DNA of 64,000 nucleotides from Oscillospiraceae bacterium (GTDB lineage Bacteria; Bacillota; Clostridia; Oscillospirales; Oscillospiraceae), in assembly GCA_022801715.1 (NCBI GenBank), contig JAAWSV010000001.1, positions 1 to 64,000 on the forward strand. The letters run 5' to 3'. A model generated the notes under the pieces. That model saw only the letters and a list, made by a program, of their open reading frames with translations, was not told where the DNA came from and ran no database searches. The position numbers and the translations under genes are program-made. Every line of letters starts with the position of its first letter. The first letter of the stretch is position 1. This document shows, piece after piece, positions 5,933 through 63,864 of this stretch.

Positions 5933-6143
5933 TTTGCGGCCCCAGCCGCAAAAAGCCCTCGGCAGAGTTTCGCGCCCACAGGCGCGAAATAATCTAAAAT
6001 CGTTTTTTCCGGGGACCGTGTCCTCGGAAAAAACACTTTGCGCGGAGCGAGCGTCGCAGGACCCCGCCCCCCTCGGGGGCGGGGTCCGAGGCGCAGAGCG
6101 AAGCGAAACCCCTCAAATGAAATGGCTGTGCCATCTCATTTGA
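5933..6143. repeat. Hairpin array A (five stem-loops)
   Basis: Five hairpins lie head to tail: 5933-5952 (8 bp, loop CCCA), 5968-5989 (9 bp, loop CACA), 6003-6033 (13 bp, T-run to A-run, loop CCGTG), 6059-6087 (13 bp, G/C only, loop CTC) and 6113-6143 (13 bp with one mismatch, loop CTGTG). The links AATCTAAAATC and GCGGAGCGAGCGTCGCAG recur in arrays D and E. No coding frame is convincing. The array ends three bases from the stop of the metallo-beta-lactamase gene and may protect or end its transcript. Confidence 0.85.
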
Positions 6144-6145
6144 AT

Positions 6146-7744
6146 TTACTTCTCCCACTTGTCGATCAGCATCTTGATCTGGTCGGCGAAGTTGCCCAAG
6201 TCCCGGTTGGCGCGGCCCTTGCTGCGCTCGATGACGGACTGGAGCAGCTTGCCCATGGCCACCAGACGCTGGTAGGCGCTGGAGATCTTGGTCCCCGTCC
6301 GGTCGGGGGCGGGCTTCCGCTCGGGCAGGTAGCCGATCTGGGTGACCTTCCCGGTGATCAGGTCCACTTCCTCCGTGTACTGGGGGGCGTGGGCGGAGAG
6401 GCCCAGCTTGCAGAGGCTCTCGGCAAAGTAGGGGGCCACCTCCCGGTCGCCGTGGACCACGAAGATGTGCTTTGGCTTTTCAAAGGACTGGGCCCACTCC
6501 AAGAGGTGATCCCGGTCGGCGTGGCTGGACAGGCCCTTGAAGTTTACAATCTCCGCCTGCACGGCGATCTCCTCGCCGAAGAGGTGGACAGAGGGGACAC
6601 CCTCCAGCAGGGAGCGGCCCAAGGTTCCCTCCCCTTGGTAGCCCACGAAAACCACGGTGCACTCCGGCCGCCAAAGGTTGTGCTTTAAGTGGTGGCGAAT
6701 CCGCCCGGCGTCGCACATGCCCGAGGCGGAGAGAAGCACCTTAGGCGTGCGGTCGGTGTTCAGAAGCTTGGACTCGTCCAAGGACTCGGTGATGTGCAGG
6801 CCGGGAAAGGTAAACATCCCCTGATGGGTGTTCACCAGTTCCATGGCCTCGTCGTCCAAGTACCCGGTGAGATCGCCGGAGAAGATGGCGGTGGCCTTGC
6901 TGGCCAAGGGACTGTCGATATAGACGGGGAAGTCGGGGACGGATTTCACCAAGTTCTCCTGCTTCATCCGGCGGATGAAGTACAGTACCTCCTGTGTACG
7001 CCCCACGGCAAAGGCGGGGATCACCACGGTGCCCCCCCGGCGGAGGGTCCGGTCGATGACCTGGGCCAGCTCCGCGGTGTAGCTCCACACCTCGGTGTGG
7101 TTGCGGTCGCCGTAGGTGCTCTCCATCACCACGTAGTCGGCCTTTTTCAGCAGCACCGGCTCCCGGATGATGGGCTGGTTGCCATTGCCGATGTCGCCGG
7201 AGAAGACGATGGTCCGGTGCTCTCCGTTCTCCTCCGCCTCGACGGTAATGGAGGCGGAGCCAAGGAGGTGGCCCGCGTCGGTGAAGGTGGCGGTGACGCC
7301 GTCCCACAGCTTGATGGTCTGATCATATTCACAGGTGTCAATGAGATCTATCACCTGCATGGCGTCGGCCATGGTGTAGATGGGCTGGACCGGGCCCCGG
7401 CCGGCGCGCTGGTTTTTCTTGCTCTGGTACTCGGCGTCCGCCTCTTGGATATGGGCGCTGTCGGAGAGCATGATCTCCAGCAGCTGGGCGGTGAGCCGGG
7501 TGGTGAGAATCCGGCCCTTGAACCCCTGACGCACCAGCATGGGGATGCGGCCGGAGTGGTCGATATGGGCGTGGGTGACCAGGACGCAGTCAATGGTGTT
7601 GGCGGCAAAGGGGAGGTCGCTGTTGTCCAGCTCATCCCGGCCCTGCTGCAAGCCGCAGTCAACCAAAAGCCGTTTGCCGTTTACCTCCAAGCAGTGACAG
7701 CTGCCGGTGACGCACTGGTCCGCTCCGAAGAAGCTCAGTTTCAT
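6146..7744 (-). CDS. Beta-CASP metallo-beta-lactamase, RNase-like
   Basis: This 532-residue protein has the metallo-beta-lactamase motif HAHIDHSG (near residue 58), the downstream FSGDIGN metal ligand segment, a beta-CASP insert, and a C-terminal RMMBL region with SSHADRDHLLEW and VVHGDRE. Proteins of this layout bind two zinc ions and cleave RNA or remove nucleotides; the precise substrate is unknown. The ATG at 7744 is preferred over 7849 because AGGAGGT lies at 7752-7758 and the protein then starts directly with the fold (MKLSFFGADQCVTGSCH). It is probably a single-gene transcript from the promoter at 7821-7849, ending against hairpin array A. Confidence 0.9.
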   Translation of the reverse strand: MKLSFFGADQCVTGSCHCLEVNGKRLLVDCGLQQGRDELDNSDLPFAANTIDCVLVTHAHIDHSGRIPMLVRQGFKGRILTTRLTAQLLEIMLSDSAHIQEADAEYQSKKNQRAGRGPVQPIYTMADAMQVIDLIDTCEYDQTIKLWDGVTATFTDAGHLLGSASITVEAEENGEHRTIVFSGDIGNGNQPIIREPVLLKKADYVVMESTYGDRNHTEVWSYTAELAQVIDRTLRRGGTVVIPAFAVGRTQEVLYFIRRMKQENLVKSVPDFPVYIDSPLASKATAIFSGDLTGYLDDEAMELVNTHQGMFTFPGLHITESLDESKLLNTDRTPKVLLSASGMCDAGRIRHHLKHNLWRPECTVVFVGYQGEGTLGRSLLEGVPSVHLFGEEIAVQAEIVNFKGLSSHADRDHLLEWAQSFEKPKHIFVVHGDREVAPYFAESLCKLGLSAHAPQYTEEVDLITGKVTQIGYLPERKPAPDRTGTKISSAYQRLVAMGKLLQSVIERSKGRANRDLGNFADQIKMLIDKWEK

Positions 7745-7820
7745 CTGCTTTACCTCCTGTTGATGGTAGGACCCCGGTACCCCCAATGGAGAGGGGGAGA
7801 GTTGTCTGATGTTGCCTCCT

Positions 7821-7849
7821 ATTGTACCACGGTGTTGGGTGTTTTGCAA
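7821..7849 (-). promoter_or_regulatory. Promoter of the beta-CASP gene
   Basis: On the minus strand TTGCAA (7844-7849) and TACAAT (7821-7826) are separated by 17 bases, a good sigma-A promoter. It lies about 75 bases upstream of the start codon. Confidence 0.75.
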
Positions 7850-7970
7850 TCATTTTCCTGTCGAGAAGGAGAGAAATTTGGGGAAAATGCCGAGTTGGCC
7901 GCGACGCTGTGCGCTTCTAACGCGGAAGGAGGGCGGTCTACAGTACCACAAAATTCCCCCTTGGCAGACA

Positions 7971-7999
7971 TTGCGGAATTCCTCGGATTGTGCTATCAT
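7971..7999 (+). promoter_or_regulatory. Promoter of the 126-residue zinc-ribbon gene
   Basis: TTGCGG (7971-7976), 17 bases, TATCAT (7994-7999). It precedes the start at 8045 by about 40 bases. Confidence 0.7.
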
Positions 8000-8044
8000 A
8001 TTCTAAAGAAAGAGAAGATGACCATTTTTTGGGGGGGAATTACT

Positions 8045-8425
8045 ATGACAAAGATCGTATGTGAGGAGTGCAAAAAGACCTATGATTATGAGCGGGACGA
8101 CTTCTGTCCGCGGTGCGGCGCGTATAATCAGCCGCGCAGGACCTCCGGGGCCACGGTGCGCGTGGATGGGATGAACGAGAGCGGTCACGCCGGCTCCTTT
8201 GCCCACCGGGAGGTCCACACGGAGAAGGCAGTGCGCCGGGCGGTGGGGCTGGATCAGTCCGGAACGGCGAAAAGGCCGTCCCAGAGTCCGACGGTGAATC
8301 GGCAGCAGGCCCCGGCGGCTCAGTCCAAGGGGCAGCAGGGGAAAAAGAGCAATGCCTCCGTGCTGACGGCGGTGATTTGGATCATTATTATTCTACAGTT
8401 TTTGAGGCTGTTCTTTGACTTTTGA
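8045..8425 (+). CDS. Zinc-ribbon protein with C-terminal membrane anchor
   Basis: This encodes 126 residues. The N-terminus carries two CxxC knuckles (CEEC and CPRC, residues 6-24). A hydrophilic Q/S/K-rich linker follows, and one C-terminal hydrophobic helix (VLTAVIWIIIILQFLRLFF) suggests a tail-anchored protein facing the cytoplasm. The start at 8045 follows a G-rich tract (GGGGGGAA) serving as ribosome site. It has its own promoter and terminator, so it is monocistronic. Function unknown. Confidence 0.82.
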   Translation: MTKIVCEECKKTYDYERDDFCPRCGAYNQPRRTSGATVRVDGMNESGHAGSFAHREVHTEKAVRRAVGLDQSGTAKRPSQSPTVNRQQAPAAQSKGQQGKKSNASVLTAVIWIIIILQFLRLFFDF

Positions 8426-8436
8426 CAGGCACAGAG

Positions 8437-8466
8437 AGGGGACCGGACAAAAGTCCGGTCCCCTTT
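8437..8466. terminator. Terminator between convergent genes
   Basis: An 11-bp stem (8438-8448 with 8453-8463, loop AAAA) is followed by TTT on the plus strand. It lies between the zinc-ribbon gene and the oppositely oriented permease gene and could serve both. Confidence 0.8.
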
Positions 8467-8485
8467 GACTTGGGCTTTTTTCGTG

Positions 8486-10645
8486 TCAGATTGTTCGTGG
8501 TACCCCGAGGGCGCGGCCCCGCCGCTGGGGCTGGATGCGCAGGCTTCGCAGTACGGTCCTCAGTGTGGCGCGGTACACCGCGTAGAGGATGGCGCTGCCC
8601 ATGGCCACTACCGCTAAGTTGGCGCTGTAGCCCGCCAGCTCGCTGGGAGTGAAGCCCGGGGGATTGCCGTTGAAGTACAGGATGAAGGCGTACAGCGCGC
8701 AGATGGCCAGAGTGCCCACGAGAGCGGGAACCGCAAAGACCCGGCCCACTTGGCGGCGGACAGACTGGTACAGGTACCGGGGGGAGGCCCCTAAGCGGCG
8801 GAGGTCGTCGTAAACCTGACGGCTGTTCAGGGCGATGGTGACGCAGCGGGTGTAGGCGATGACCAGCACGGCGGCGAAGCACACGATGGCCACAAAGGCG
8901 AAGAGCATCAGAAAGACCGCCACGGTTTTGGTGAAATCGTTCTGGTCCAGTACGCGGAAGTGGGGCATGTACTGCCAGTAGAGGCGGAAGGCGGAGCTCT
9001 CCCGCTGGGCGTAGTCCATGTTCCCCAGCCCGTTGGCCTCACAGTAGTCCGGGTCGGCGTAGTAGTAGCCCTTCTCCGCGATGTGCCGCTCCCGGATCAC
9101 CGGGTCCCAGCCGTCAACCACCGCCACTGACCGGCTGGAGCGGTCCACGATGGCGTTGAACAGGGCCTTGGCAAAGGGGTAGGTCTCCGACACATTCTCC
9201 ACGTCGAAAAAGATCTGGCGCTCCCGCCACTCTGCCGGGAGGCCCGCCGTCAGGGCGGCGTAGTCGGTGTCGCTGAGGATATATCGCCCCGCCAGCAGGC
9301 TGTTTTGCAGGAGACCCTCCGGTTCCACGGCCAGCACCGCGCCGGTGAAGGGGTTGGTGACACGGGAGATGCTGGTATAGCCGCCCTCTTGGCTTGCCGC
9401 GGGGAGGACCTTGCCGGGGGCCACGGACACCGCTTCGCCGGTGAGGGCGCGGCAGGCGCTCTCGGAGAGGAAGAGGTCGGTATACAGCTCCTCCATATAC
9501 ACCGCCTCAAAGGTGATGCCGAAGGAGGTCTCGGTCTCAAGCTCGGTGGTGCCGTCTACGGTGAGGCGAGCCAGATCGGCGGTACGGAAGGAGGTGACGG
9601 TTACCCCCATCTCCTCCGCCAAGGCCCGGACCTCCGGCTCCTCCGGGATATCTTGGTCGGCGCGGTAGTGGTAGGCGTAGTCCACCGGCTGGAGTTTGGT
9701 GGAGAGGGCATTCTGGGCGCTGATGGTGGGGATATAGAAGAGGCCGAAATAGCCGCCGGCGATGAGGACGGTAATGACCAGCATGTTCCGCACGGTCTGG
9801 CGGCCTTGGAACTTCATCATGCTGTTGGCGATGATATTTTGGTAGCGGTTCCTTTTCCGGCTCCAGCCGTTGACCACCGTGTGCAGCAGTACCATGTAGA
9901 GGCCGGGGAACAGGGGCAGGTAGAACAGGGAGAATACCGCCTCCGGTGGGAAGTAGTGGAGCACATCGAGAAAGAAGCCGGGGGCCATGTAGCCCAGCAC
10001 CATGCCTGAGCCCATCAGCAGAATGCCTGCAGGGCCATACCAGCGCTTTACCTCCCGGATGGGCTCGGAGCGCCGGGCCTCGCTGATGATCTCCATGATG
10101 TTGGTCCGCCGCAGGGCGCGCCAAGCCATCCACAGCAGCATGGCGGTGACAAAGGCGGAGAATACCAGAGCGAACAGGGCTGTTTGGGGACTGAGGATAA
10201 GGGCCATCTCCTCGGTGTCCACTACCAGCAGCCGGAACCCTTGCCAGATGCCGCAGGCCAAGGGGACGCCCAAGGCCATCCCGGCCAGACAGGAGAGGAC
10301 CGACAGTGCCCCCATTTCCCCCAGCAGCTTCCGCCCCACCTGCCGCTTGGAGGCCCCCAGGGCCAGCAGTACGCCCAGTTCCCGGCCCTTGTATCGGAGG
10401 AACAGGCCGGCGGCGTAGGCGGTGAACACCCCGCAGCCCACTACAGAGAGTATGAAGATCATCATCACCTGCTTGCGGCTGTCGCCGCCCTCGGGGAGGA
10501 CGGAGAGCACCGTGGGGGAGCGCATGATGGAAACGAAGGCGGTGATGAGGAGCACGGAGACGAAGCAGCACAGGGACAGGAGCAAATACTGCTTTCGGTT
10601 CTGCCGGCGCAGGGCGGCGGTGAGATCATTATAGGTCCGTATCAT
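8486..10645 (-). CDS. FtsX-type ABC permease, BceB-like
   Basis: The 719-residue membrane protein has two FtsX-like permease blocks with about ten transmembrane helices. One pair near the N-terminus is followed by three helices, and a hydrophilic domain of roughly 200 residues (about 310-530) precedes the last helices. This is the architecture of BceB-type transporters, whose large extracellular domain recognises antimicrobial peptides or their lipid targets. Its ATPase gene is directly upstream and the reading frames overlap by 17 bases, implying coupled translation. A BceRS-like sensor pair lies 13 kb away (23724-25382) and may regulate it; that link is inferred. Confidence 0.88.
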   Translation of the reverse strand: MIRTYNDLTAALRRQNRKQYLLLSLCCFVSVLLITAFVSIMRSPTVLSVLPEGGDSRKQVMMIFILSVVGCGVFTAYAAGLFLRYKGRELGVLLALGASKRQVGRKLLGEMGALSVLSCLAGMALGVPLACGIWQGFRLLVVDTEEMALILSPQTALFALVFSAFVTAMLLWMAWRALRRTNIMEIISEARRSEPIREVKRWYGPAGILLMGSGMVLGYMAPGFFLDVLHYFPPEAVFSLFYLPLFPGLYMVLLHTVVNGWSRKRNRYQNIIANSMMKFQGRQTVRNMLVITVLIAGGYFGLFYIPTISAQNALSTKLQPVDYAYHYRADQDIPEEPEVRALAEEMGVTVTSFRTADLARLTVDGTTELETETSFGITFEAVYMEELYTDLFLSESACRALTGEAVSVAPGKVLPAASQEGGYTSISRVTNPFTGAVLAVEPEGLLQNSLLAGRYILSDTDYAALTAGLPAEWRERQIFFDVENVSETYPFAKALFNAIVDRSSRSVAVVDGWDPVIRERHIAEKGYYYADPDYCEANGLGNMDYAQRESSAFRLYWQYMPHFRVLDQNDFTKTVAVFLMLFAFVAIVCFAAVLVIAYTRCVTIALNSRQVYDDLRRLGASPRYLYQSVRRQVGRVFAVPALVGTLAICALYAFILYFNGNPPGFTPSELAGYSANLAVVAMGSAILYAVYRATLRTVLRSLRIQPQRRGRALGVPRTI

Positions 10646-11390
10646 CGCTGTCCTCCCCGCACATGGCTTTCACGGCAGCCAGCAGCCGGTCATGGAAGGC
10701 GCTGCGCTGGCCTGCATTTACAAGGGTGTCGTACACAGTGCCGTCCTTCAGGAGCACCACCCGGTCGCAGAAGGAGGCGGCGAAGGAGTCGTGGGTCACC
10801 ATGAAAATGGTGGCGCCTAAATTTTTCCGGGCCCGCTGGAAGCTGCCGATTACCGCCCGGCTGGACTTGCTGTCCAGGTTGCCGGTGGGCTCGTCGGCCA
10901 GAATCAGCAGGGGATGGTTGATGAGGGCCCGGGCCACAGCGGTGCGCTGCCGCTCGCCGCCGGAGATGTCTGAGGGGTACTTGCCTTTGATGTGGTCGAT
11001 GCCGAAGGTGCGGCACAGATCGTCGGCGTAGGTCTCCGCCATATCGTCCACGCCGCCGGAGAGGATCCGGGGCAGGAGGATGTTGTCCCGGACGGTGAGG
11101 CCGTCCAGCAGCATGAAGTCCTGAAAGACGAAGCCAAGCTTCTGGTTTCGCACCTTGGCTAAGGCGTCCTCGTCCAAGCCGGCCAAGTGCTCCCCGCCCA
11201 GGGTGATGTCCCCGCTGTCCATGGGGATGTAGCAGGAGATGCAGTTGAGCAGAGTGGTTTTGCCGGAGCCGGAGGGCCCCATGACGGCCACAAACTCCCC
11301 CTCGGCCAGCTGGAAGGAGACCCCCTTGAGGACCTCTACAGGGGTATTGGCGATCAGGTAGGATTTATGGAGGTTTTCGACGTAGAGCAT
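10629..11390 (-). CDS. ABC transporter ATP-binding protein, BceA-like
   Basis: This 253-residue ATPase has Walker A GPSGSGKTT, Q-loop FQDFMLLDGLTV, signature SGGERQR, Walker B LLILADEPTGNLDS and the H-loop MVTHD, in the MacB/BceA subfamily. It powers the permease encoded by the overlapping gene. The start at 11390 (MLYVENLHKSY) lies nine bases after AGAAAGG; ATG 11399 is also possible but is only three bases from that site. The likely role is export or target release of peptide antibiotics. Confidence 0.92.
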   Translation of the reverse strand: MLYVENLHKSYLIANTPVEVLKGVSFQLAEGEFVAVMGPSGSGKTTLLNCISCYIPMDSGDITLGGEHLAGLDEDALAKVRNQKLGFVFQDFMLLDGLTVRDNILLPRILSGGVDDMAETYADDLCRTFGIDHIKGKYPSDISGGERQRTAVARALINHPLLILADEPTGNLDSKSSRAVIGSFQRARKNLGATIFMVTHDSFAASFCDRVVLLKDGTVYDTLVNAGQRSAFHDRLLAAVKAMCGEDSDDTDL

Positions 11391-11450
11391 AATTTTCATC
11401 CTTTCTGTTGAATGAGGAATGATAGAAAAGAAGTCTCCTATGGGAAAAAT

Positions 11451-11475
11451 TCCTAATTTCTCATTCCTAATTGAC
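11451..11475. repeat. Short dispersed repeat, TCATTCCTAATT type
   Basis: TCCTAATTTC followed by TCATTCCTAATTGAC lies between the ABC ATPase gene and the TraX gene. Related words recur at 23685-23705 (ACTCCTCATTCCTAATTGAC), 26097-26117 and, inverted, at 11411-11420 and 40439-40456. They look like copies of one short intergenic repeat. Confidence 0.55.
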
Positions 11476-12261
11476 TCACACTTGTAGAATCAAACGGATG
11501 ATGCCGATGATCAGCAGGTGTGCGGGATAGAAGAGGTAGAAGAAATATTTGGGGATCTTTAGGCCGCTGTGGGTGCGGGGGAAGATGAGAAGGGCGGCGA
11601 AGAGGGAGAAGAAGATCCAGTTAATACAAAGAAAGCCCAAGTTGAGACACCGTGGGTCTGTGGGGCTGCCGTTCCAGAGGGCGGGGAGGTATTGCAGGAT
11701 GAAGAGTATTGCGCCCAGCTTGGGGCGATTTCGGCAGAGGTAGAAGATGAGCATGAGTATAACGCCGTCGACACTGTAGTCGAAGCCGAACATGGAGAGG
11801 ATCAGGAAGCTGAGGAGGAAGAGCCACCACTTTCGGCTCTTTACGCCGGTCATGGCCAGGAGGCTGAAGAACAGGGTGAAGTAGATGTTCATGTTCATCC
11901 ACTCCGCCTGATAGTCGTAGGGGTGGGTGGCTAAGATGTAGAAGGGCTGGCTGATGAGGGCGAAGATGGCTAAACGGGTGAGGTACTTTTTGGTGTTTCG
12001 GGTGTAGAGCAGGCCCACTGTCATGCAGTAGCAGAAGAGGGGGAAGGCCAGACGGCCGATCCAGCGGAATGGGCCCACCTCCGGGAAGAAGGCGCCGCCG
12101 ATATGGTCCACCAGCATGGAGAGGATGGCCACCAGCTTCAGGAGGTCGGTGTCCAAGTTGGTTTGGAGCCGGGGGACGTCGGCGGGGAAGGTGGGGGGCG
12201 TGGTCAGAGCGGTGCGGATGCGCTGGCCCATAGGGGCTTGGTTGGTGTTGTTTGCGGGCAT
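11476..12261 (-). CDS. TraX family membrane protein
   Basis: This 261-residue polytopic protein of the TraX family has about seven hydrophobic helices and the family opening LKLVAILSMLVDHIGGAFFP and FRWIGRLAFPLFCYCM. TraX of F plasmid N-acetylates pilin, but most chromosomal Firmicute members have no known substrate and may modify surface molecules. AAAAGGAG precedes the ATG at 12261. No conjugation genes are nearby, so a transfer role is not supported. Confidence 0.87.
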   Translation of the reverse strand: MPANNTNQAPMGQRIRTALTTPPTFPADVPRLQTNLDTDLLKLVAILSMLVDHIGGAFFPEVGPFRWIGRLAFPLFCYCMTVGLLYTRNTKKYLTRLAIFALISQPFYILATHPYDYQAEWMNMNIYFTLFFSLLAMTGVKSRKWWLFLLSFLILSMFGFDYSVDGVILMLIFYLCRNRPKLGAILFILQYLPALWNGSPTDPRCLNLGFLCINWIFFSLFAALLIFPRTHSGLKIPKYFFYLFYPAHLLIIGIIRLILQV

Positions 12262-12368
12262 GGGATTCCACTCCTTTTTGAGCTGTCGTTGGTTTTCTTG
12301 CTGTGGCCTTACACTACCACGGAGCGATGAAAGATGGGGGCGGCTCTGTCATTTTTGGCGGGGGCGCC

Positions 12369-36730: not shown

Positions 36731-37723
36731 ATGTCAATGATTGCAGCCTGTCTCATCAGCTTTGCTGTCACCGCGCTGGTGGGGGGCAGAGCCATCCTGC
36801 CCGCCCTGCGCCGCCTGAAGGCGGGGCAGAGCATCCGGGAGGACGGCCCCAAGTGGCACGCCGGCAAGTCCGGCACCCCCACCATGGGGGGACTGATGTT
36901 CATCTTAGGCATCGCTGTGGCGGTGCTCATTGCTGGATGGGGGGAGATGAGCCGTGGGGTATATACCCACCTGTACGTCTTTGCCTTCGCTATAGTCTTC
37001 GGGGCCATCGGCTTTTTCGATGACTACCAGAAGGTCCACAAGCACCAGAATTTAGGCCTGACGGCCCTTCAGAAGTTCCTCCTGCAGGTGGCGGCGGCGC
37101 TGGCCTTCTTGGCACTGATGCGCCTTGAGGGGATGCTGACGCCGGAGCTCTATGTGCCCTTTCTCAATGTCTACTGGCATCTGAGTTGGCCGGTGTACTT
37201 GGTGCTGGCGGCCTTTATCATCGTGGGTACGGTAAACGCGGTGAATATCACCGACGGCTTGGACGGCCTTGCCACCACGGTGACGGTGCCGGTGGCGCTG
37301 TTCTTCGTCTCTGTAGCCACTTGGTGGGGGCTTACGCAGCTGGGAATCTTCGCCGGCGCGCTGCTGGGGGGGCTCTTGGGCTTTCTCATCTACAACGCCC
37401 ACCCGGCCAAGGTTTTCATGGGGGACACCGGCTCGCTGTTCTTGGGCGGGGCGGTGGCGGGCTTGGCCTTCGCCTTCGATATGCCCTTGGTGCTGGCGTT
37501 TGTGGGGATTATCTACATCATTGAGACTATGTCCGACATCATTCAGGTGACCTATTTCAAGCTGACACACGGCAAGCGCATTTTCAAGATGGCCCCGCTG
37601 CACCACCACTTTGAGCTGTGCGGCTGGAGTGAGATCAAAATTGTGGTAGTCTTTACCTGCATCTCGCTGGTGTTCTGCGCGCTGGCGTATTTTGGGGTGG
37701 TAAATCGCTTTGCGTTCGCTTAA
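36731..37723 (+). CDS. mraY: Phospho-MurNAc-pentapeptide translocase MraY
   Basis: The 330-residue membrane enzyme with ten helices makes lipid I on undecaprenyl phosphate. It shows GTPTMGG (GKSGTPTMGGLMF), DDYQKVHKHQNLGL, NVNITDGLDGLAT and HHHFEL. AAGGATT precedes the ATG. It is followed by hairpin array B rather than murD. Confidence 0.96.
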   Translation: MSMIAACLISFAVTALVGGRAILPALRRLKAGQSIREDGPKWHAGKSGTPTMGGLMFILGIAVAVLIAGWGEMSRGVYTHLYVFAFAIVFGAIGFFDDYQKVHKHQNLGLTALQKFLLQVAAALAFLALMRLEGMLTPELYVPFLNVYWHLSWPVYLVLAAFIIVGTVNAVNITDGLDGLATTVTVPVALFFVSVATWWGLTQLGIFAGALLGGLLGFLIYNAHPAKVFMGDTGSLFLGGAVAGLAFAFDMPLVLAFVGIIYIIETMSDIIQVTYFKLTHGKRIFKMAPLHHHFELCGWSEIKIVVVFTCISLVFCALAYFGVVNRFAFA

Positions 37724-37980
37724 AATCTATGGATTTTCGCGTGAAATCTGCGGATTTCACGCAAGGGAGGAAATGAGGTTGTCGTTTGAAATCTGCGGAT
37801 TTCAAACAAGGATTTGATTGACGGGGGACTTTTTTCTGGAAGTGCCGGGGGCAATTCCAGAAAAAAGGTACAAACCGAGCGCGGTTTGCAGGGTGTTTTT
37901 CCGAAAACGCGGTTTCCGGAAAACGAATTTAGTCCTTTTGCGCGAAGCGCAAACTCCTTGCGGAGGGCACTCCTGCGGAG
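37722..37980. repeat. Hairpin array B (seven or eight stem-loops) between mraY and ftsW
   Basis: Stem-loops: 37722-37737; 37739-37762 (10 bp, loop TGCG); 37784-37807 (10 bp, loop TGCG); 37829-37867 (13 bp, T-run to A-run); 37871-37888 (7 bp, loop AGCG); 37895-37924 (bulged T-run to A-run); 37937-37953 (7 bp, loop GAA); and a short pair 37954-37980. Two loops read TGCG on a GAAATC/GATTTC stem, the reverse complement of the CGCA loop in arrays D and E. It occupies the place of murD, and the first hairpin overlaps the mraY stop codon. Confidence 0.87.
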
Positions 37981-41798: not shown

Positions 41799-41828
41799 GA
41801 ATTTCCAACGAGAATTTGATTTGCGGGG

Positions 41829-41930
41829 CTTTTTTCGGGAAGTGGCCGATTCCCGAAAAAAGGATCGGGCCAAGCATGGCCCGCAGAGCGCAGCAAAATC
41901 CCCTCAAGAAAATGCTGGCATTTTTTTGAG
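41829..41930. repeat. Hairpin array C (three stem-loops) between murA and ftsQ
   Basis: 41829-41862 (13 bp, C-T6 to A6-G, like 37829-37867 in array B), 41866-41883 (7 bp, loop AGCA) and 41903-41930 (12 bp with one G-T pair, loop CTGG, resembling the last hairpin of array E). It begins 30 bases after the murA stop. Confidence 0.85.
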
Positions 41931-41947
41931 CCACCGGAGGTGATACC

Positions 41948-55261: not shown

Positions 55262-55329
55262 CGGAAAAAATTCCCCCGCCTCATTCGACAATATTCCCGC
55301 CCCAAAGCTCCCATACTATCCCCATCGAA

Positions 55330-55548
55330 TTTGCGGCCCGGCCGCAAAGAGCCCCTCAAAAGTTTGCGGCGCGCACGCCGCAAAACATCTAAAATCATTT
55401 TTTCCGGAAACTGCGTTTTCGGAAAAAATACCTCTCAGCCGACAAGCGTGCGAGCGTCAGCGAGTGCGACGCAGGCGGCTGCAGACCTCTTCGTTTGAAA
55501 TCCGCAGATTTCAAACGAGCGCGTAAGCGCATATTGCCCTGCGGGGTT
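55330..55548. repeat. Hairpin array D (about six stem-loops)
   Basis: 55330-55348 (8 bp, loop CCG), 55363-55384 (9 bp, loop CGCA), 55398-55428 (14 bp with one G-T, T6 to A6, loop TGC), an open pair CAGCCG/CGGCTG (55436-55481), 55492-55517 (11 bp, loop CGCA on a GAAATC/GATTTC stem) and 55519-55530 (loop GTAA). The first three modules match array A in order and in their links (AGCCCCTC, ATCTAAAATC). The CGTTTGAAATC stem is nearly the same as 37784-37807 in array B, with loop CGCA in place of TGCG. Confidence 0.88.
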
Positions 55549-55743
55549 CGTGATGCGTCTTTTTTTAACCCACATTTCGTTATACGGGATGCCGCCCTCA
55601 GCCTGTGGTTTGCAGGCCTCCCGACTGCCACTTTTGCGGTTGGAAGTTGGAAGCAGTAAAGCTGGCTGGAGGCAACCCACCTGCTCACTATGTGCAGGTT
55701 ATAACGAGGCGCGCACGGCCCAGGCGGGGCTTGTTATTTCACC
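55549..55743. other. Gap between array D and the following terminator
   Basis: No gene is convincing. The stretch begins with CTTTTTTT and includes ordinary mixed-composition sequence. Nothing else is seen. Confidence 0.4.
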
Positions 55744-57371: not shown

Positions 57372-57391
57372 GGAAGTAAGGCGGCATACAT

Positions 57392-57434: not shown

Positions 57435-57470
57435 ATTTCTGACGCCCTCTCTGCACACCCCACCAAAATT

Positions 57471-57503
57471 TGTGGGCCCAGCGATACAAACGCCGGGCCC
57501 ACA
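57471..57503. terminator. Hairpin after the DUF6672 gene
   Basis: TGTGGGCCC (57471-57479) and GGGCCCACA (57495-57503) pair, with an inner GCG/CGC, 12 bp in all. On the minus strand AATTTTGG follows. It probably ends the transporter operon. Confidence 0.65.
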
Positions 57504-57532
57504 AGAGCATATTTTGGTTTTTAACCGGCCAA

Positions 57533-58030
57533 TCAAACGCCGAAGTCCTCGCCTGTGTCGCCGGGCAAGTCCTCGCCCAGCCCCATGTCCTCGCCGATGT
57601 CGAGGTCCTCCTCCGGCTCCTCCGGTTCGGGGGCGGGGATGAACTCCGACAGCCAAGCCTCCTCCGGGAGGCCAGCCAGATAGGCGGGCAGGTTGATGAT
57701 GATGCCGTCCATGTTGTAGGGCAGCGTCAGTTCGATCTCCTCGATCCGGGGCTCCTCGCCCTTTTTCTCGGTGATCTCCAAGGTCATCTTGAAGTTCTGG
57801 CCAATCCAAGTTGCCATGCCGCGCTCCCGCTTGCCCAGCTTGGCGACCTCCTCGTCCTTGACGGTGACAACCACCCGCTCAAAGGCCTTGTACTCATTGC
57901 CTTGGTAGTTCTCAACGGTCTTGTTGTCAAAATAGATGGTGTGTCCCCGGCCGATGACCATCATGGTGGCGGCGATGGCGATCACCACAGCCAAGGCAGT
58001 CAGGCGGATCACAAGTCCTTTCTTGTTCAC
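57533..58030 (-). CDS. DUF6672 family protein
   Basis: This 165-residue protein has one N-terminal membrane helix (about 8-27) and an external domain (GHTIYFDNKTVENYQG onward), ending in a very acidic E/D-rich tail. It is the last gene of the DUF3798 transporter locus and overlaps the permease gene by four bases. DUF6672 is a family named from such loci; its role is unknown, perhaps an accessory envelope subunit of the importer. Confidence 0.82.
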   Translation of the reverse strand: MNKKGLVIRLTALAVVIAIAATMMVIGRGHTIYFDNKTVENYQGNEYKAFERVVVTVKDEEVAKLGKRERGMATWIGQNFKMTLEITEKKGEEPRIEEIELTLPYNMDGIIINLPAYLAGLPEEAWLSEFIPAPEPEEPEEDLDIGEDMGLGEDLPGDTGEDFGV

Positions 58031-59202
58031 GACGCGGCGCCCCCTTCCTTCTGGGCCAGCGCCAGCAGCTCGCCGCCCTGGCTCCGGGCCCTGCGCTTCT
58101 TGATCTCATACATGATCAGGGCCATGGTGATGACGCCATAGGAGACAAACACGCGGAAATATTCTCCGATCATGGCGTCGCCGGTGATAGCGACACCCGC
58201 CTTGGGCGCCACGATGAACATGGTGTGGAACAGTATGACGCCCAAAAAGACGTTTCCGATGGAAGCCTTTTCCACACTGGCGCCGCCGACCAGCAGCGCG
58301 GCGATGCAGAACATACCGATCTGGGAGTGGGCGGTGTAGGTGGGGAAGTTGCCGATGTTCTGGAGATAGATAATCTGACCGAAGCCGGCAAATACCGTGG
58401 AGATGATGATGGAGATAATCCGGGTTCGGTCCACATTGATGCCGGCGGCCTGCGCCACATCCATGTCCTGACCCACGGCCCGCATGTCCTGACCCAGCTT
58501 CGTCCGGCGGAACCAGACGATGAACAGGCACAGCGCGGCGATGATGATGAAGTTCAAAACCGGAATCTTCACACCGTTGTAGAGGATGGCCAGCTCATTG
58601 TCCAAGCACTGGCGCATGTTGGTCAGATTCACGGTGGTCCGGATGCCAAAGCCTCTGGGCAGGCGGATGGAGGCGTGTTTGATGGGGATGATAGAGGCCA
58701 TAAAGTAGAGCACCACCAGCTGGTAGAGACCGCCGACGAAGTAGTTCATCATATAGCCCAGGATCATCTCGCGGCCCTTGGCCATATTCATGAGTTTGCC
58801 GCACATGAGACCCAGCAGGGTGGACAGGGGCACGGACAGGATCATAGCCAGCACCACGCCGGGAATGCCCCAGATCTGCCAGTCGGTGACAAAGATCAGC
58901 GCGATCTGGCCCGCCATGGCCCCCAAAGTCATGCCGAAATTCAAGCCCATACCGGACATGATGGGGATCAGCAGACTGAGGATCAAAAAGATGTTCCGCC
59001 CCATACGGGTGATGATCTCGTTGAGCAGATAGCTGGTAGAGAAGCCGGAGAGGGGAATGCAGACAGCGCAGATGATAATGAACATGATGGGCACAGCGTA
59101 GTTGCGCACAAGTTCCAAAATCCTCCGGCCAATAGGGGTAGCGTAGTTGTGCATAGATTCCAAATTCCTCTGGCCAAGAGGAGTATTTTTATTACTGCTC
59201 AT
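58027..59202 (-). CDS. ABC importer permease 2
   Basis: The 391-residue protein has about nine helices in the branched-chain/monosaccharide permease class (BPD_transp_2): MGLNFGMTLGAMAGQIAL, AAGINVDRTRIISIIIST and QIGMFCIAALLVGGASVEKA. It is similar to the neighbouring permease, with which it should form a heterodimer. The start at 59202 overlaps the preceding gene by four bases (ATGA). Confidence 0.9.
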   Translation of the reverse strand: MSSNKNTPLGQRNLESMHNYATPIGRRILELVRNYAVPIMFIIICAVCIPLSGFSTSYLLNEIITRMGRNIFLILSLLIPIMSGMGLNFGMTLGAMAGQIALIFVTDWQIWGIPGVVLAMILSVPLSTLLGLMCGKLMNMAKGREMILGYMMNYFVGGLYQLVVLYFMASIIPIKHASIRLPRGFGIRTTVNLTNMRQCLDNELAILYNGVKIPVLNFIIIAALCLFIVWFRRTKLGQDMRAVGQDMDVAQAAGINVDRTRIISIIISTVFAGFGQIIYLQNIGNFPTYTAHSQIGMFCIAALLVGGASVEKASIGNVFLGVILFHTMFIVAPKAGVAITGDAMIGEYFRVFVSYGVITMALIMYEIKKRRARSQGGELLALAQKEGGAAS

Positions 59203-60275
59203 TTCAATCCCTCCGTTTTTCTCGTCAGGGCGTAGACCACCATGCCGTTGGAGACGATGATACGGATGACCTCGCTCACGTCCGTGTGGATCAGAGCGGT
59301 GATCACGGTGGGCGTCATGGTCACAAGACCTTGGAAGAGGAGCGTACCGATGATGACGTTGGAGATGGAGGCCTTATTCACCGACGCGCCGCCGATGAGA
59401 ACAGCCGCCACCGCCGGCATAGTCATATTCTGGGGGGCCGTGTAGAGCTGCACAAAGCCGAAGCCCTGCTGATAGACGATGATGCCGATGGCGCCCAGCC
59501 AAGTGGAGAGAATCACGGACAGCAGCCGGATCCGGTCCACGTTGATGCCGGAGGCCTTGGCGAAGGTGGGATTGGAGCCCACAGCGGTCATGGCGGTGCC
59601 GGTCTTGGTGTGGAGGAACGCCCACATCAGGAAGGCCAGCAGGGCAAAGAACAGCAGGGACCCGGTGGGAATCACCAAATTGATCCCCCAAGGATTCAGG
59701 TCGATCTCAAAGAGCTTGGAGAGGACATTGGCGTAGAAGCTGTCCAGAGCGAACATGTTTCTAAGGCCCACACCGGTGTATGCCATAACGATAGAGGGGT
59801 TCTTATAGGGGATCATCAGCCACATGATGCACATGAAGGACACAGAGGAGAACCCCACGTAGGTGGCCACCATCATCTCGCCGCCCTTGATCCTGTTCAG
59901 CAGCGCGCCATAGCCGCCGCCAAAGAGAATGGCAAAGGGGGTGGACACCACAATGGCCATCACAAAGCTCATAGGCCCGGTAAAGCCCAGCTCGATGGCC
60001 AGCGTACCGCCCAAGAGCCCCGATAGAACGCCCAGAGGGATGCCGAAGTTCAGTCCGCAGCCGGAGTGGATCATGGGTACCATGGCCAGCACCAGTACAG
60101 CGTTCCAGCTGAAGCGGTTGATGACGTTGGTGATCTGGGTGGCCAGATCGGACCCGGTGATGGGGGCCATAATGAAGAGGAAAATCAAAAATCCGGTAAT
60201 AATCAGTCTCGGCAGGCCGTAGGTATTGACGAGCTGACCGAAGCGGGTTTGCTGCAGTTGTTCTGATTTGCTCAT
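59199..60275 (-). CDS. ABC importer permease 1
   Basis: The 358-residue membrane protein is of the same permease class: GCGLNFGIPLGVLSGLLGG, GGGYGALLNRIKGGEMMVAT, ASGINVDRIRLLSVILST and MPAVAAVLIGGASVNKA. ATG 60275 is preceded by AGGAGGG with seven-base spacing; a longer frame to 60296 is not needed. It pairs with the permease of the next gene. Confidence 0.92.
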   Translation of the reverse strand: MSKSEQLQQTRFGQLVNTYGLPRLIITGFLIFLFIMAPITGSDLATQITNVINRFSWNAVLVLAMVPMIHSGCGLNFGIPLGVLSGLLGGTLAIELGFTGPMSFVMAIVVSTPFAILFGGGYGALLNRIKGGEMMVATYVGFSSVSFMCIMWLMIPYKNPSIVMAYTGVGLRNMFALDSFYANVLSKLFEIDLNPWGINLVIPTGSLLFFALLAFLMWAFLHTKTGTAMTAVGSNPTFAKASGINVDRIRLLSVILSTWLGAIGIIVYQQGFGFVQLYTAPQNMTMPAVAAVLIGGASVNKASISNVIIGTLLFQGLVTMTPTVITALIHTDVSEVIRIIVSNGMVVYALTRKTEGLK

Positions 60276-60288
60276 ATCAATACCCTCC

Positions 60289-61893
60289 TTACACAACTTT
60301 ACTGATCATCAGCGTGCCGAACTCCTCCGAGGACGCCGCCGCGGGCAGAATGCCCGAGACCTGTCCGCCGGAGATAATGGCGATCCGGTCACAGGTCTGC
60401 CGCAGCTCCTCCAGCTCAGAGGAGATCATCACCACCGTGACGCCGCTCTCCCGGTTGAACTGCTTCAGCGCATCCAGCACCAAGGCCTTGGCGCCCACGT
60501 CGATTCCCCGGGTGGGTTCGGACACAAAGAGGAACTTGGGTTCCAAGGCGAAGGCCTTAGCCAGACATACCTTCTGCTGGTTGCCGCCGGAGAGCTCCTT
60601 AGCCTTCTGCTTGGAGCTGGTACACTTGATCTGAAGCTGGTCAATATACTTCTGGGTCACGGTGTGGATGGCTTTCTCGTCCCGCCATTTGACAAGGCCC
60701 CCGAGGAGGAGCTTCAAAAACTTGTTCTGAATCTGCATCGCGGGGAAGGCCACGTTCCACTCCAGCGTTTCATCCAACAACAGACCCACCTCCCGCCGGT
60801 CCTCCGACACAAAGGCCAAGGAGGAGTCCAAGCACTTGCGGGGGTTGTTCAGGGGAATCTCCTGCCCGTCAAAGACCACGGTGCCGCCGGCCTCGTAGAG
60901 ACCCATGATGCCGTTGGGGATTCCCAGCTTCCCTTGGCCGGCCAAGCCGCCGATGCCCAAAATCTCACCCTGGCGCACATCCAAGGAGACATTGCGCACC
61001 GTCTCACCGGGCATGTCCACCCACAGATTCTTGATGGACATAACGGTCTTGGCATCGGCCTTTTCGTCCTTGATCTCGGCGCGGGAGGCGGCACTCTGCA
61101 CGTCGCGGCCCACCATCCAGCGTGTGATATCGTCCACACTGGTCTCTTTGGTGGGGACGTCCCGGACCACGTGGCCGTCCCGCATGACCACCACCTTGTC
61201 ACACACCGAGAGAATCTCGTGAAGGCGGTGGGTGATGAAGATTACGGAGATCTTTTGGGCGGCCATGGCCCGGATGGAATCCAGCAGAGCCTCCGCCTCC
61301 TTCTCCGTGAGAACGGCGGTGGGCTCGTCCAAAATCAGCAGCTTGAGCTGATCCTTGCTCAACTCACGGGCAATCTCTGTAAACTGCTTGTGGCCCACGG
61401 GCATACTGCTGATGACCATTTTCGCGTCGATCTCCACGCCCATCTTCTGGATGGCCGTGGCGGCCCGCCGGTCCATCTCCTTGTAGTCCAAGGTGTTGAG
61501 CCGCTCGCCGAAGACTTGGGAGATCACATTCTTTTTCTGGGGCTCCCGATTGAGGAGGATATTCTCTGTGGCGGTGAAGCCGGGAATCAGGGAGAACTCT
61601 TGGTGGACCATGCCGATGCCGGCCTTCAGCGCGTCGAAGGGGGTGTTGAACACCGCCTTCTCCCCGTTGATGATGATGTCGCCCTCATAGCCGCCGGTCT
61701 CCCGGATAACGTCCATACCGAAGAGGATTTTCATCAGTGTGGACTTACCCGCGCCGTTCTCACCGCAGAGACCTAAAACCTGGCCGGCCTCCAAGGTGAA
61801 ATTGATGTCGGTGAGGACCTGATTGCCGAAGAAGTCCTTCTTGATGCTTCGCATCTCCAGCAGAGGAGCATTTGAGCTGCCTATCGAAATCAC
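60289..61893 (-). CDS. Double ATP-binding protein of sugar/nucleoside-type importer
   Basis: The 534-residue protein has two ABC ATPase domains, like RbsA/MglA or the nucleoside importers. The first has GENGAGKSTLMKILFG and LLILDEPTAVL; the second has LSGGNQQKVCLAKAFA near 415 and SEPTRGIDVGAKA. The start is uncertain: GTG 61893 lies only two bases after AAAGG, and ATG 61854 (MRSIKKDFFGN) is an alternative. It drives the two permeases. Substrate specificity cannot be read from it. Confidence 0.9.
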   Translation of the reverse strand: MISIGSSNAPLLEMRSIKKDFFGNQVLTDINFTLEAGQVLGLCGENGAGKSTLMKILFGMDVIRETGGYEGDIIINGEKAVFNTPFDALKAGIGMVHQEFSLIPGFTATENILLNREPQKKNVISQVFGERLNTLDYKEMDRRAATAIQKMGVEIDAKMVISSMPVGHKQFTEIARELSKDQLKLLILDEPTAVLTEKEAEALLDSIRAMAAQKISVIFITHRLHEILSVCDKVVVMRDGHVVRDVPTKETSVDDITRWMVGRDVQSAASRAEIKDEKADAKTVMSIKNLWVDMPGETVRNVSLDVRQGEILGIGGLAGQGKLGIPNGIMGLYEAGGTVVFDGQEIPLNNPRKCLDSSLAFVSEDRREVGLLLDETLEWNVAFPAMQIQNKFLKLLLGGLVKWRDEKAIHTVTQKYIDQLQIKCTSSKQKAKELSGGNQQKVCLAKAFALEPKFLFVSEPTRGIDVGAKALVLDALKQFNRESGVTVVMISSELEELRQTCDRIAIISGGQVSGILPAAASSEEFGTLMISKVV

Positions 61894-61909
61894 ACCCTTT
61901 ATCTAAAAT

Positions 61910-62046
61910 CCTGTATTCACAACCGCAAACGCCGCCTAACGGGATATTCTCCCACCGCTCCTTGCAGGGGAGGGACCGAACAGATCGACAGGAGCGGCCT
62001 GAGGAGAATTCCTCATCCATCTGCCATTTCCAGTTGTGAATACAGG
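61910..62046 (-). ncRNA. Candidate structured RNA ahead of the transporter ATPase gene
   Basis: A 14-bp perfect stem joins 61910-61923 (CCTGTATTCACAAC) with 62033-62046. Inside it are CCGCTCC/GGAGCGG (61955-61961 with 61991-61997), GAGGA/TCCTC (62001-62005 with 62010-62014, loop GAAT) and GGGA/TCCC (61941-61953). Read on the minus strand, it lies between the lipoprotein gene's terminator and the ATPase start, as a riboswitch or processing element would. It matches no class I know. No coding frame runs through it. Confidence 0.6.
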
Positions 62047-62050
62047 TTCT

Positions 62051-62091
62051 AAGGAAGCAGGGGGGAGGATGAACCTCCCCCCTGCTTCCTT
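62051..62091 (-). terminator. Intercistronic hairpin after the DUF3798 gene
   Basis: A perfect 18-bp stem (62051-62068 with 62074-62091, loop ATGAA). No U-run follows, so it may limit or stabilise rather than fully stop the transcript, keeping the lipoprotein mRNA more abundant than the transporter mRNA. Confidence 0.72.
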
Positions 62092-62123
62092 CATTGATTT
62101 CCTGTAAAATGCAGTGGCTTCAC

Positions 62124-63389
62124 TTACTTCACGGTGTAGTACTTCTCGGGTACTTCAACGTCAGTGGCGCCCATGAACTTGCCGGGATTGCCCATGATAT
62201 AGGTATCCTGGTAGATCAGGAACACGTTGTCCTCCTTGACGCCGGTGTCAGCATTGGTGTAACCGGAGCCGTTCCAAGCAGCCTTGGGGGAGTACTCCTG
62301 CAGGGCGGCGGCCACGTCGTCCATGTTGTTGATCTCGCTGTTGCCCTCGATCACGTTGATGGCGTGCTGGGCCAGACCAGCGGACAGGCAGTAGCCGTAG
62401 GAGTAAGCCCAAGTGCCGAAGCGACCGTCGCCGCCGGCGTCCACAACAGCCTGCTCCACCTTGGCCAGAATGGCGTCAAAGTCGCCGGCCTCGGCAGTCA
62501 GGTCCAGATCACCTAAAGCATTGGGATAGCCCATCAGAGGAGAGGGCAGGTCGGCCTCGATGAAGTAGCCGCCCAGCTCCAGCAGGCGCTGCAGCAGGGG
62601 AGCGGTGTGGGCGTCGTTGGTGCAGAAGTAGGCAGAGTTCTGGCCGTACTTCTGGATCCACTCGGGAGCCTTCTCCAGCACGTAGGCCTGGGCGCCGGTG
62701 ACGCCCACGTCGGTGGTGGGATCGGGAGCGGTCTCCTCCACGAAGGTCATGCCAAACTCCTTGCAGGCCTCCTTCATGACGGCCACACGGCGGCTCATGG
62801 TCTCATAGGACATGTGCCGGGGGAAGGAGATGTGGACGAAGGTGTCGCAGCCCAGCTCGTGGGCGGTGCGGATCATCAGATAGCCGCGGGAGACGAAGTC
62901 GTTGTTGCAGACCAAGTCGGCGGAGGCGCCCACCACGGGCAGGTCCTCGTGAGCCTCACCGGCGATGCACAGGATGTCGGGGCGGCGCTCCTTGATCTGG
63001 GTAAAGGCCTCGGCGGTGCCGGGGACGGACTGGTTGACGATGATGGCCTTCATCAGAGGATCGTCGGACATGTTGACGATGGTCTGAATGGTGGTCTCCA
63101 GCTCCTCGGTGAAGTTGTCAGGGTAGGTGGCCAGCTTCACCTTCTCAGCGCCGTACTTGGTCTGAATGGCCTCGGCGCCGCGGAGATCATCCTCGGACTG
63201 GGACACGGTACCGGTGATGATGCCAATGTGCCAATCGTCAGTGGTGGTGTTGTCGTCAGTGGTGTTGTTGTCATCGGTCTGGTTGGTGTTCTGATTGCCG
63301 CCGTTGTTGGACGGCTGGTTGTCGTTGCCGCAACTCACCAGTGCAAAGAGCATGGTCAGCGCCAGCAACATGCTGAGAATTCTTTTCAT
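62124..63389 (-). CDS. DUF3798 family substrate-binding lipoprotein
   Basis: This 421-residue exported protein has a lipoprotein signal ending LFALVSCGND (lipobox Cys20), a low-complexity N/T/D linker (about 25-52) and a periplasmic-binding-protein-like fold starting WHIGIITGTVSQSEDDLRGA. This resembles the type I ligand-binding proteins of nucleoside and sugar importers, but DUF3798 ligands are not known. AGGAGG lies five bases before the ATG at 63389. It is the first gene of the ABC locus and lies behind a leader with alternative hairpins. Confidence 0.93.
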   Translation of the reverse strand: MKRILSMLLALTMLFALVSCGNDNQPSNNGGNQNTNQTDDNNTTDDNTTTDDWHIGIITGTVSQSEDDLRGAEAIQTKYGAEKVKLATYPDNFTEELETTIQTIVNMSDDPLMKAIIVNQSVPGTAEAFTQIKERRPDILCIAGEAHEDLPVVGASADLVCNNDFVSRGYLMIRTAHELGCDTFVHISFPRHMSYETMSRRVAVMKEACKEFGMTFVEETAPDPTTDVGVTGAQAYVLEKAPEWIQKYGQNSAYFCTNDAHTAPLLQRLLELGGYFIEADLPSPLMGYPNALGDLDLTAEAGDFDAILAKVEQAVVDAGGDGRFGTWAYSYGYCLSAGLAQHAINVIEGNSEINNMDDVAAALQEYSPKAAWNGSGYTNADTGVKEDNVFLIYQDTYIMGNPGKFMGATDVEVPEKYYTVK

Positions 63390-63427
63390 GCAAACCTCCT
63401 ATATTTCCTTGTGGGACTATTATGCAA

Positions 63428-63477
63428 ACCTTTTTCTGTTTCCAGTACTGGAAACAGAAAAAGGTGTACACCTTTTT
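63428..63477 (-). promoter_or_regulatory. Overlapping palindromes in the DUF3798 leader
   Basis: A 38-base perfect palindrome (63428-63465, half-site CTTTTTCTGTTTCCAGT) shares its right end with a 20-base palindrome (63458-63477, centre GGTGTACACC). The two can fold into hairpins only one at a time, because both use the AAAAAGG at 63458-63464. The promoter is upstream at 63513-63540, so both would be transcribed. It may be a DNA operator, an RNA switch, or both. Confidence 0.78.
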
Positions 63478-63512
63478 CATGGAATACTGCTTACACATAT
63501 CCACAACTTATT

Positions 63513-63540
63513 ACTATAGCAAATATCTGAGCTTTGTCAA
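63513..63540 (-). promoter_or_regulatory. Promoter of the DUF3798 transporter operon
   Basis: Minus strand TTGACA (63535-63540), 16 bases, TATAGT (63513-63518). Transcription would start near 63506, giving a leader of about 117 bases that includes both palindromes. Confidence 0.83.
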
Positions 63541-63669
63541 CCATATTTCTGCAATTTACCGCGCTAACAGGAAAGAAACTTCTGTTTCGCGGACAAATAC
63601 CAAAAAATATGACCGCACACCAAAGACACACGTTGCTCTTCACGCCGTGCCGCAGTGCCATCAACAGAG

Positions 63670-63864
63670 TTTGTGGCCCGCAGGCCGCAAATAAACTGGA
63701 GCTATTTTTCCGGAGATTGCATCCTCGGAAAAATACCTCTCGCAAAGCGAGCGTCAAACCCATGAGCCTCCCCGCAGGGAGGCTCATGGGCGAGACGCAG
63801 CCCCTAATCGATGGAAACCCGCAGATTTCCATCGAGCGTCTTGAAAATGCTCACATTTTTTAAG
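63670..63864. repeat. Hairpin array E (six stem-loops)
   Basis: 63670-63691 (9 bp, loop CGCA), 63705-63733 (T5 to A5, loop TGC), 63739-63751 (5 bp, loop AAA), 63759-63790 (14 bp perfect, loop CGCA), 63799-63824 (11 bp with one mismatch, loop CGCA) and 63840-63864 (loop CTCA). The order and the TACCTCTC link after the second hairpin match array D. The last hairpin covers the stop codon of the glycosidase gene and resembles the last hairpin of array C. Confidence 0.88.

Follow-up and report, generated by a model that had tools for sequence, protein, structure and literature searches.

The DNA analysed here, referred to as the window, is a 64,000-nt stretch of a 2.77 Mb Oscillospiraceae draft genome (G000; 113 contigs, 93% complete). 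A preliminary description of the window reported five arrays of adjacent hairpins, at 5933-6143, 37722-37980, 41829-41930, 55330-55548 and 63670-63864, and all five are present (Table 1). The first core lies 3' of, and antisense to, a minus-strand beta-CASP gene (6146-7744; called gene, Pfam). The second and third arrays occupy the mraY-ftsW and murA-ftsQ gaps, the fourth sits between a DUF1292 gene and 6S RNA, where it is sense to the flanking genes (the minority orientation), and to the left of the fifth lies a minus-strand gene, to which its core is antisense. The proposal that the arrays form one family holds for four of them, which share a core composed of hairpin H2, with TTT..AAA on the outside and a variable inner part, hairpin H3 (T-run/A-run) and, between the two, a linker that ends in AAATCA or a related sequence, but not for 41829-41930, in which this core is absent. 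The modules do recur in order, as described, with the 37722 array running in reverse. Exchangeable H4 modules, sorted by eye into types A, B, C and D, stand to the right of the core and are followed by a terminal hairpin H5, often GAAATCCGCAGATTTC, close to a stop codon. The orthologous mraY-ftsW array of genome G001 has one H5-type hairpin, compared with two in the window.

Table 1. Components of the hairpin arrays in the window (R1, covariance model described in the text)
Feature	Position	Strand	Basis and remarks
Array 1, H1, optional left module TTTGCGGC..GCCGCAAA	5933-5952	+	Sequence; module also left of some other copies in this genome
Array 1, core: H2 5968-5989, linker, H3 6002-6034	5960-6042	+	R1 E 3.6e-19, training copy
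Array 1, H4 type B (GCGGAGCGAGCG .. GCGCAGAGCGAAGC), inner hairpin 6059-6087	6043-6107	+	Sequence, fold
Array 1, H5, terminal hairpin, 2 bases from stop codon of gene at 6146	6113-6143	+	
Array 2, two H5-type hairpins (37739-37762, 37784-37807), mraY-ftsW gap	37722-37807	-	
Array 2, H4 type C	37829-37867	-	Sequence, hairpins
Array 2, core: H3 37895-37924, H2 37937-37953	37886-37962	-	R1 E 2.0e-9, training copy
Related hairpin cluster without core, murA-ftsQ gap	41829-41930	.	Also in G001
Array 4, H1 and core (core 55355-55437: H2 55363-55384, H3 55397-55429)	55330-55437	+	R1 E 1.2e-18, training copy
Array 4, H4 type A (AGCCGACAAGCGTGCGAGC..GGCGGCTGC) and H5 55491-55518	55438-55518	+	
Array 5, core: H2 63670-63691, H3 about 63703-63736	63662-63743	+	R1 E 2.6e-14, training copy
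Array 5, H4 type B (inner hairpin 63759-63790), H5 63808-63835, one more hairpin	63744-63861	+	

Compared with shuffled sequences, RNA folding gives z-scores of -9.5 (5925-6150), -5.2 (37722-37980), -5.9 (55325-55530) and -9.0 (63665-63870), and a weak -2.3 for 41800-41935, where 6 of 200 shuffles fold equally well. Only 6S RNA was matched in the window by the covariance models of Rfam, so the arrays match no family known there, and eight other loci returned three miRNA matches far under the gathering scores and nothing else. No fixed repeat/spacer pattern was found on reading the five arrays by eye, which fits the earlier statement that they are not CRISPR.

To count the copies, as the preliminary description had proposed, a covariance model (R1) was built from 12 copies, including the four window cores, and used to search the genome and its relatives. 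The arrays belong to a dispersed family. At least 64 copies occur in the own genome at E 2.4e-6 or better, the 12 training copies included; this is a lower bound, as 150 of 1313 candidates were scored, among which no match fell at 41829-41930. When at most 76 candidates per genome were scored, at least 72 matches were obtained in each of G000 and G001, 5-16 in each of nine others of the same genus, and 0-26 in other genera of the family. Among named genomes, Oscillibacter sp. ER4 has 45 matches, Ca. Pelethomonas 23 and O. valericigenes An890 15, and no match was found in O. ruminantium GH1 or Oscillibacter sp. PC13. Ten of the 12 genomes reached through named loci match, 1 to 45 times each. 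Model R2, applied to at most 18 candidates per genome, gives matches in 27 of the 245 genomes searched from the order; among those listed, 15 of 20 members of the own family and all four f7 genomes (G042, G066, G084, G128) are positive, G216 (f13) has at least 18 matches, and seven further genomes have 1-4 each. Homologues are thus present in related genera and in two or more further families of this order. The closest relative (L130) matches the window DNA at 93-94%, and homologues of one window protein are found in Oscillospiraceae, Oscillibacter, Dysosmobacter and similar. Among the papers listed in literature searches, which reached few subscription titles, none describes this element or such repeats in Oscillospiraceae.

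The copies also follow gene ends and strand, a point that had been suggested for checking. Genes were called with a codon-usage script; 60 of the 64 own copies have called genes on both sides, and no called gene of this genome overlaps a copy. In core orientation, 48 of these 60 are antisense to the flanking genes, 7 are sense, 5 lie between convergent genes and none between divergent genes. Of the 360 gaps at least 150 bp long in the sampled own genome, 100 are divergent, a rate at which 0 of 60 has a probability of about 3 in 10^9. The same bias is seen at 35 loci of 11 other genomes (of the 33 whose two flanks are known, 20 are antisense and 1 is sense, with 11 convergent and 1 divergent) and in 20 copies of Oscillibacter sp. 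ER4 (14, 1, 5 and 0, respectively), which gives 82 antisense to 9 sense when all sets are pooled. Orientation shows no link with replication in a rough test based on local skew, covering the 21 codirectional copies for which GC3 skew was clear: the antisense copies, 16 in number, divide into 7 at leading- and 9 at lagging-strand genes, and the 5 sense copies into 3 and 2.

An orientation that tracks transcription and not replication, together with the absence of copies between divergent genes, favours a host 3'-UTR RNA element, whose hairpins would help to stabilise mRNA ends, process them, or protect the junctions within operons, with stems drifting under selection for pairing. This explanation is nevertheless unlikely, as copy number ranges from 0 to more than 60 within one family. 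It is still harder to see in the arrays nothing more than terminators, single or clustered. In several ER4 copies H5 does form an A-run/GC/T-run hairpin near a stop codon, but in H2 and H3 the T residues are on the 5' arm and the A residues on the 3' arm, opposite to the layout of a terminator, and arrays lie inside the mraY-ftsW and murA-ftsQ gaps of a cell-wall/division operon.

Gap lengths were compared at orthologous sites. For murA-ftsQ, G000 and G001 have 152-156 bp; in every one of the nine other genus members, the gap is estimated at 25-86 bp. The mraY-ftsW gap is 300 bp long in G000 and 217 bp in G001, compared with 34-47 bp in G005, G006, G008 and G009. In G002, G003 and G010 it is filled by 96-128 bp of different sequence, and G004 and G007 have an element there of 115-116 bp that shares the layout and has another H3. 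Between the beta-CASP gene and trmA, the gap without an array is about 33-35 bp (L131, L132). Such short gaps in place of arrays in conserved operons are a further argument against a host 3'-UTR element.

In relatives, the whole element can be delimited. It is about 200-270 bp long and has imperfect inverted repeats (TGTCRAAAAAG). Beyond the core, near-identical copies of G217, G247, G264 and G158, and also copies in G007 and G004, run out to fixed ends: one end has a CAGTCTGTCRAAAAAG- or CTGCGTGTCGAAAAAG-like sequence, the opposite end the inverse of a sequence of this type; copies of these six genomes carry the terminal inverted repeats. In 19 copies with both ends recognised, 193-258 bp lie between the end motifs, which is too short for the element to contain a transposase gene. 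Outside both ends, many copies have one and the same hairpin, which differs from locus to locus. The exact left-end pattern is present in G007, G217 and G247 and was found in neither G000 nor G060.

A whole-flank comparison of 135 rows (own, ER4 and other genomes; score of at least 16; L301/L353 entered twice) yielded 17 matches, 15 of which were kept: 5 in G217 (5/5), 4 in G007 (4/5), 3 in G247, and 1 each in G158, G004 and G010. Dropped were L352, a remnant of a neighbouring element, and the 19-base match at own_L089, which lies in coding sequence. In controls with swapped flanks, direct matches numbered 0 of 290 and inverted matches 1 of 290. At L343 the hairpin copies enclose a larger composite, and at L388-L391 flanking copies are visible by eye, at L391 only in part. 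Among 15 further loci, five pass (L398, L401, L403 and L404, which are new, and L397, which is the L302 locus), eight have no copy or a partial one, and L396 and L406 were not properly located. A purely descriptive, uncontrolled survey using the best-scoring end pair per locus found the strict pattern at both ends of 19 of 56 loci; 14 of the 19 score 15 or more (11 direct, 3 inverted), with the score at L389 belonging to a second, neighbouring element. The 37 loci without a strict end include L349, which has a 39-base copy. The flank test detected no duplicated hairpin in own-genome copies or in any of 20 ER4 copies, and duplication is absent or partial in many copies of G264, G158, G060, G247, G004 and G010.

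The arrangement along the gene is stop codon, hairpin, element, hairpin and U-run, as at L241 of G007, where a 20-bp hairpin, CAGGCCCCCAAGGGGGCCTA, stands on each side of the element. The corresponding empty site, on contig C138 of G004, reads GAACAGGCCCCCCAGGGGGGCCTATTTTTT and has a single hairpin, CAGGCCCCCCAGGGGGGCCTA. On the left, the two sites have only about 20 bp past the hairpin in common because the adjacent gene lies on a separate contig in G004. At the equivalent position G006 likewise has a short gap, carrying a different hairpin. L230 yielded no empty site, its neighbours being rearranged. In relatives the element lies at intrinsic-terminator hairpins, and many copies are flanked by two copies of the local hairpin, mostly direct and in some cases loop-inverted. 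Its mobile, terminator-duplicating nature there is close to demonstrated, and the inverted repeats and target duplication point to a transposon, against a host 3'-UTR element.

A likely partner is found in Oscillibacter sp. ER4 (G280), where a 489-aa open frame matches IS1182 (NF033551) at 393.6 bits, above the cut-off. The ends of this IS1182 element, CAGTCTGTCAAAAAAG / CAGTCTGTCGAGGAAC, are similar to those of the array element, and around it a terminator hairpin is duplicated in direct orientation over 29 bp. An IS1182 element of G060 has such ends and a hairpin copy as well (direct score 29, inverted 32). Of 33 genomes, 15 have some NF033551 match, and three, namely G280, G021 and G060, have full-length genes over the cut-off. 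The end motif occurs at four of eight IS1182 loci examined (L407, L409, L422 and one end of L408); it was found at none of L410 (own), L411, L412 and L419, and L412 (G247) has unrelated inverted repeats. One end and no duplication were found for the IS1182 of G021, and ends without duplication at L422 (G060). A degraded IS1182 in G007 (NF033551 68 bits, E 7.2e-19, below the whole-protein cut-off; DDE_Tnp_1_6 E 2.1e-13) carries CAGTCTGTCGAAAAA at one end, one exact left-end match in G007 belongs to this degraded element, and the hairpins that abut its two ends differ from each other. No NF033551 match was obtained in 18 of the 33 genomes. These include G004, G010 and G264 despite their flanked copies, and also all four of the copy-rich f7 genomes.

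Short palindromic repeats on the 3' side of genes, grouped in mosaic clusters, also characterise REP/BIME/REPIN elements, which are intergenic and lie mostly between unidirectional or convergent genes, according to PMC3733652, and two Y1_Tnp matches occur in G001. REP hairpins have, by the same source, a GTAG or CGTC tag at one end. Movement of such elements by a RAYT (Y1) transposase is, however, disfavoured to the point of being scarcely credible here. Y1_Tnp (PF01797) is matched neither in G000, at 93% completeness, nor in G042, although both have many copies; G000 has no RAYT match, and duplicated target hairpins, IS1182-like ends and a DDE-type partner are found instead.

Taken as a reading of sequence, the arrays probably derive from a non-autonomous (MITE-like) element that an IS1182-family DDE transposase mobilises in trans; most of the copies would be old and reshuffled. 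The earlier suggestion of the spread of a hairpin element is well supported by copy number, gaps, inverted repeats, the duplicated target and the IS1182 partner. For the window's own copies, mobility is deduced from the shared core, the gaps at orthologous sites and the copy number. The element would connect both feet of an extruded hairpin, with subsequent repair copying that hairpin to either side. Target polarity (hairpin, then U-tract), combined with selection against promoter regions, may account for the fixed orientation. Own-genome copies may have lost clear ends and duplications, or may have been inserted in a hairpin-replacing mode. The flanked copies of G004, G010 and G264, in genomes with no IS1182 match, and the half of the IS1182 loci without ends weaken the attribution to IS1182. 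The own sites within the mur/fts operon are also unlikely to have been terminators, which sits poorly with a MITE of this kind. The proposed element would account for puzzling intergenic hairpin arrays of common gut bacteria, and could spread via gene ends with a stop signal staying on both sides.

The closest known systems are IS1272 (IS1182 family) and TnSha1. According to PMC5678879 and PMC4923244, IS1272 seeks stem-loops, several of them confirmed terminators, with no sequence consensus, and deletes all or part of the target hairpin without duplication; TnSha1 was found in both orientations at one target. The element described here resembles them in the IS1182-family transposase, inverted-repeat ends and hairpin targets. 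It differs in that the whole hairpin is duplicated, not removed, in relatives, in its near-fixed gene orientation and in carrying no transposase. Whole-hairpin duplication appears as a proposed route only (pathway b in PMC5678879), and the relatives provide natural evidence for duplication of an entire target stem-loop, an outcome of transposition previously only drawn as a possibility. MITEPye1 of Paracoccus yeei is likewise non-autonomous, foldable and mostly intergenic, with IS1182-like inverted repeats and direct repeats; however, it has 1-3 copies per chromosome, and the accessible text of PMC11578231 contains neither the word "terminator" nor a description of a covarying core. Pneumococcal BOX is also modular, folded, intergenic and thought to have been mobile and now dormant, but it has other modules, and the portion of PMC3049150 available describes no terminator target duplication.

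The statement that stems differ by paired changes holds between copies, as judged from pairing, double changes and arm swaps. In 72 rows aligned to the model, which favours pairing, 95.6% of cells pair and 21 of 24 pairs have changed on both sides; double-changed cells number 331, whereas 500 shuffles average 84 +/- 8.5, and a shift of the partner by 1-3 columns lowers pairing to 42-65%. When arms are swapped between copies, Watson-Crick pairing falls from 95% to 47% in H2 and from 91% to 57% in H3, and 0 of 1000 shuffles are as good in either case. A closing helix joining H2 and H3 as a three-way junction, suspected by eye, showed no covariation in the swap tests.

Orthologous sites present a different picture. 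Between G000 and G001, 24 such sites contain 13 double (7 Watson-Crick) and 36 single changes in 199 H2 pairs, and 14 double (4 Watson-Crick) and 31 single changes in 281 H3 pairs, counts that include misaligned and swapped sites and set aside 2 H2 and 5 H3 with gaps. At several sites one H4 type is swapped for another. Consequently, the structural selection suggested in the preliminary description is supported in part: covariation across copies and species agrees with it, but at orthologous sites single changes outnumber double ones and modules are exchanged. Stepwise compensation is not borne out at these sites; whole-hairpin exchange is observed and, given the dominance of one-sided changes, may be the source of much of the pairing pattern. 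The same evidence divides over the host 3'-UTR element, which is favoured by the strong covariation between copies and by some arrays that are almost constant between G000 and G001 although their flanking genes differ by 2-5%, and opposed by the excess of single changes. If the MITE-like element is moved as proposed, arrays would grow and stems diverge through further insertions into the hairpins, through their duplication or whole replacement, and through their exchange between copies. The element also allows direct tests of DNA-shape target choice and of what covariation means in mobile repeats.

A MITE interior requires no particular structure, yet the H2-H3 structure and a G.U pair are kept across genera, an observation that counts against the IS1182-moved MITE. 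Somewhat doubtfully, the H2-H3-H4 core, with its conserved linker and G.U pair and its changeable stems, could be a working structured nucleic-acid module selected across genera, as DNA of a transposition complex, as RNA that restores or insulates a terminator, or as a landing pad for insertion, with the terminator repaired by duplication. The conserved H3 wobble pair, in 72 copies from several genera, is G-U in 52, A-U in 13, G-C in 4, C-G in 2 and other in 1. Wobbles give mixed indications of a strand preference: read in core orientation, those in H3 are G.T in 66 cases and A.C in 4, and in H4/H5 the respective counts are 25 and 42 in own copies and 26 and 5 elsewhere.

A second small element of approximately 70-75 bp, TGCCACCCCGCCAACACAG..TTAACGCTGCGG, was found within H2 or H3, the two hairpins of the array core, in one genome. 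The window's own genome has it at three loci (L098, L099 and L103), and the closest relative (G001) has it at the positions corresponding to L086 and L089. For L103, L086 and L089, it is missing from the counterpart genome of this pair. It is a nested hairpin that is apparently mobile. Some arrays are nearly identical between the same two genomes, with 2-3 differences per 265-302 bp at the L064, L075 and L102 sites; the genes flanking these arrays differ by approximately 2-5%.

Loci L116-L124 form a subfamily of their own, type D, whose ends resemble TCCAAAGGGGG/CCCCCTTTGG; some of its copies carry additional long hairpins. Similar copies also occur in G004 and G006.

The orientation of the hairpin copies flanking an element was also considered. 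For some elements the inverted fit of the pair is better than the direct fit: L348 (G217), L228 (G004), L409 (G060) and L391 (G247), the last being a partial copy judged by eye. In these pairs, the loop is the reverse complement of its counterpart.

Downstream of the beta-CASP gene, the same gap is filled at L134 and L141 by different hairpin pairs of the ATTCTTTTTCTT..AAGAAAAAGAAT type, which were found in Ca. Pelethomonas and another MAG. The window's own genome also carries pieces of an IS1182-family gene, and a search of their locus (L410) for the element's end motif returned no match. Array 4 lies immediately before a 6S RNA.

Coordinates of the IS1182-family remnant and the 6S RNA
Feature	Location	Strand	Family	Score
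IS1182-family gene pieces	G000:C107:1284-2272		IS1182	
6S RNA	window 55533-55734	+	RF00013	78.6 bits
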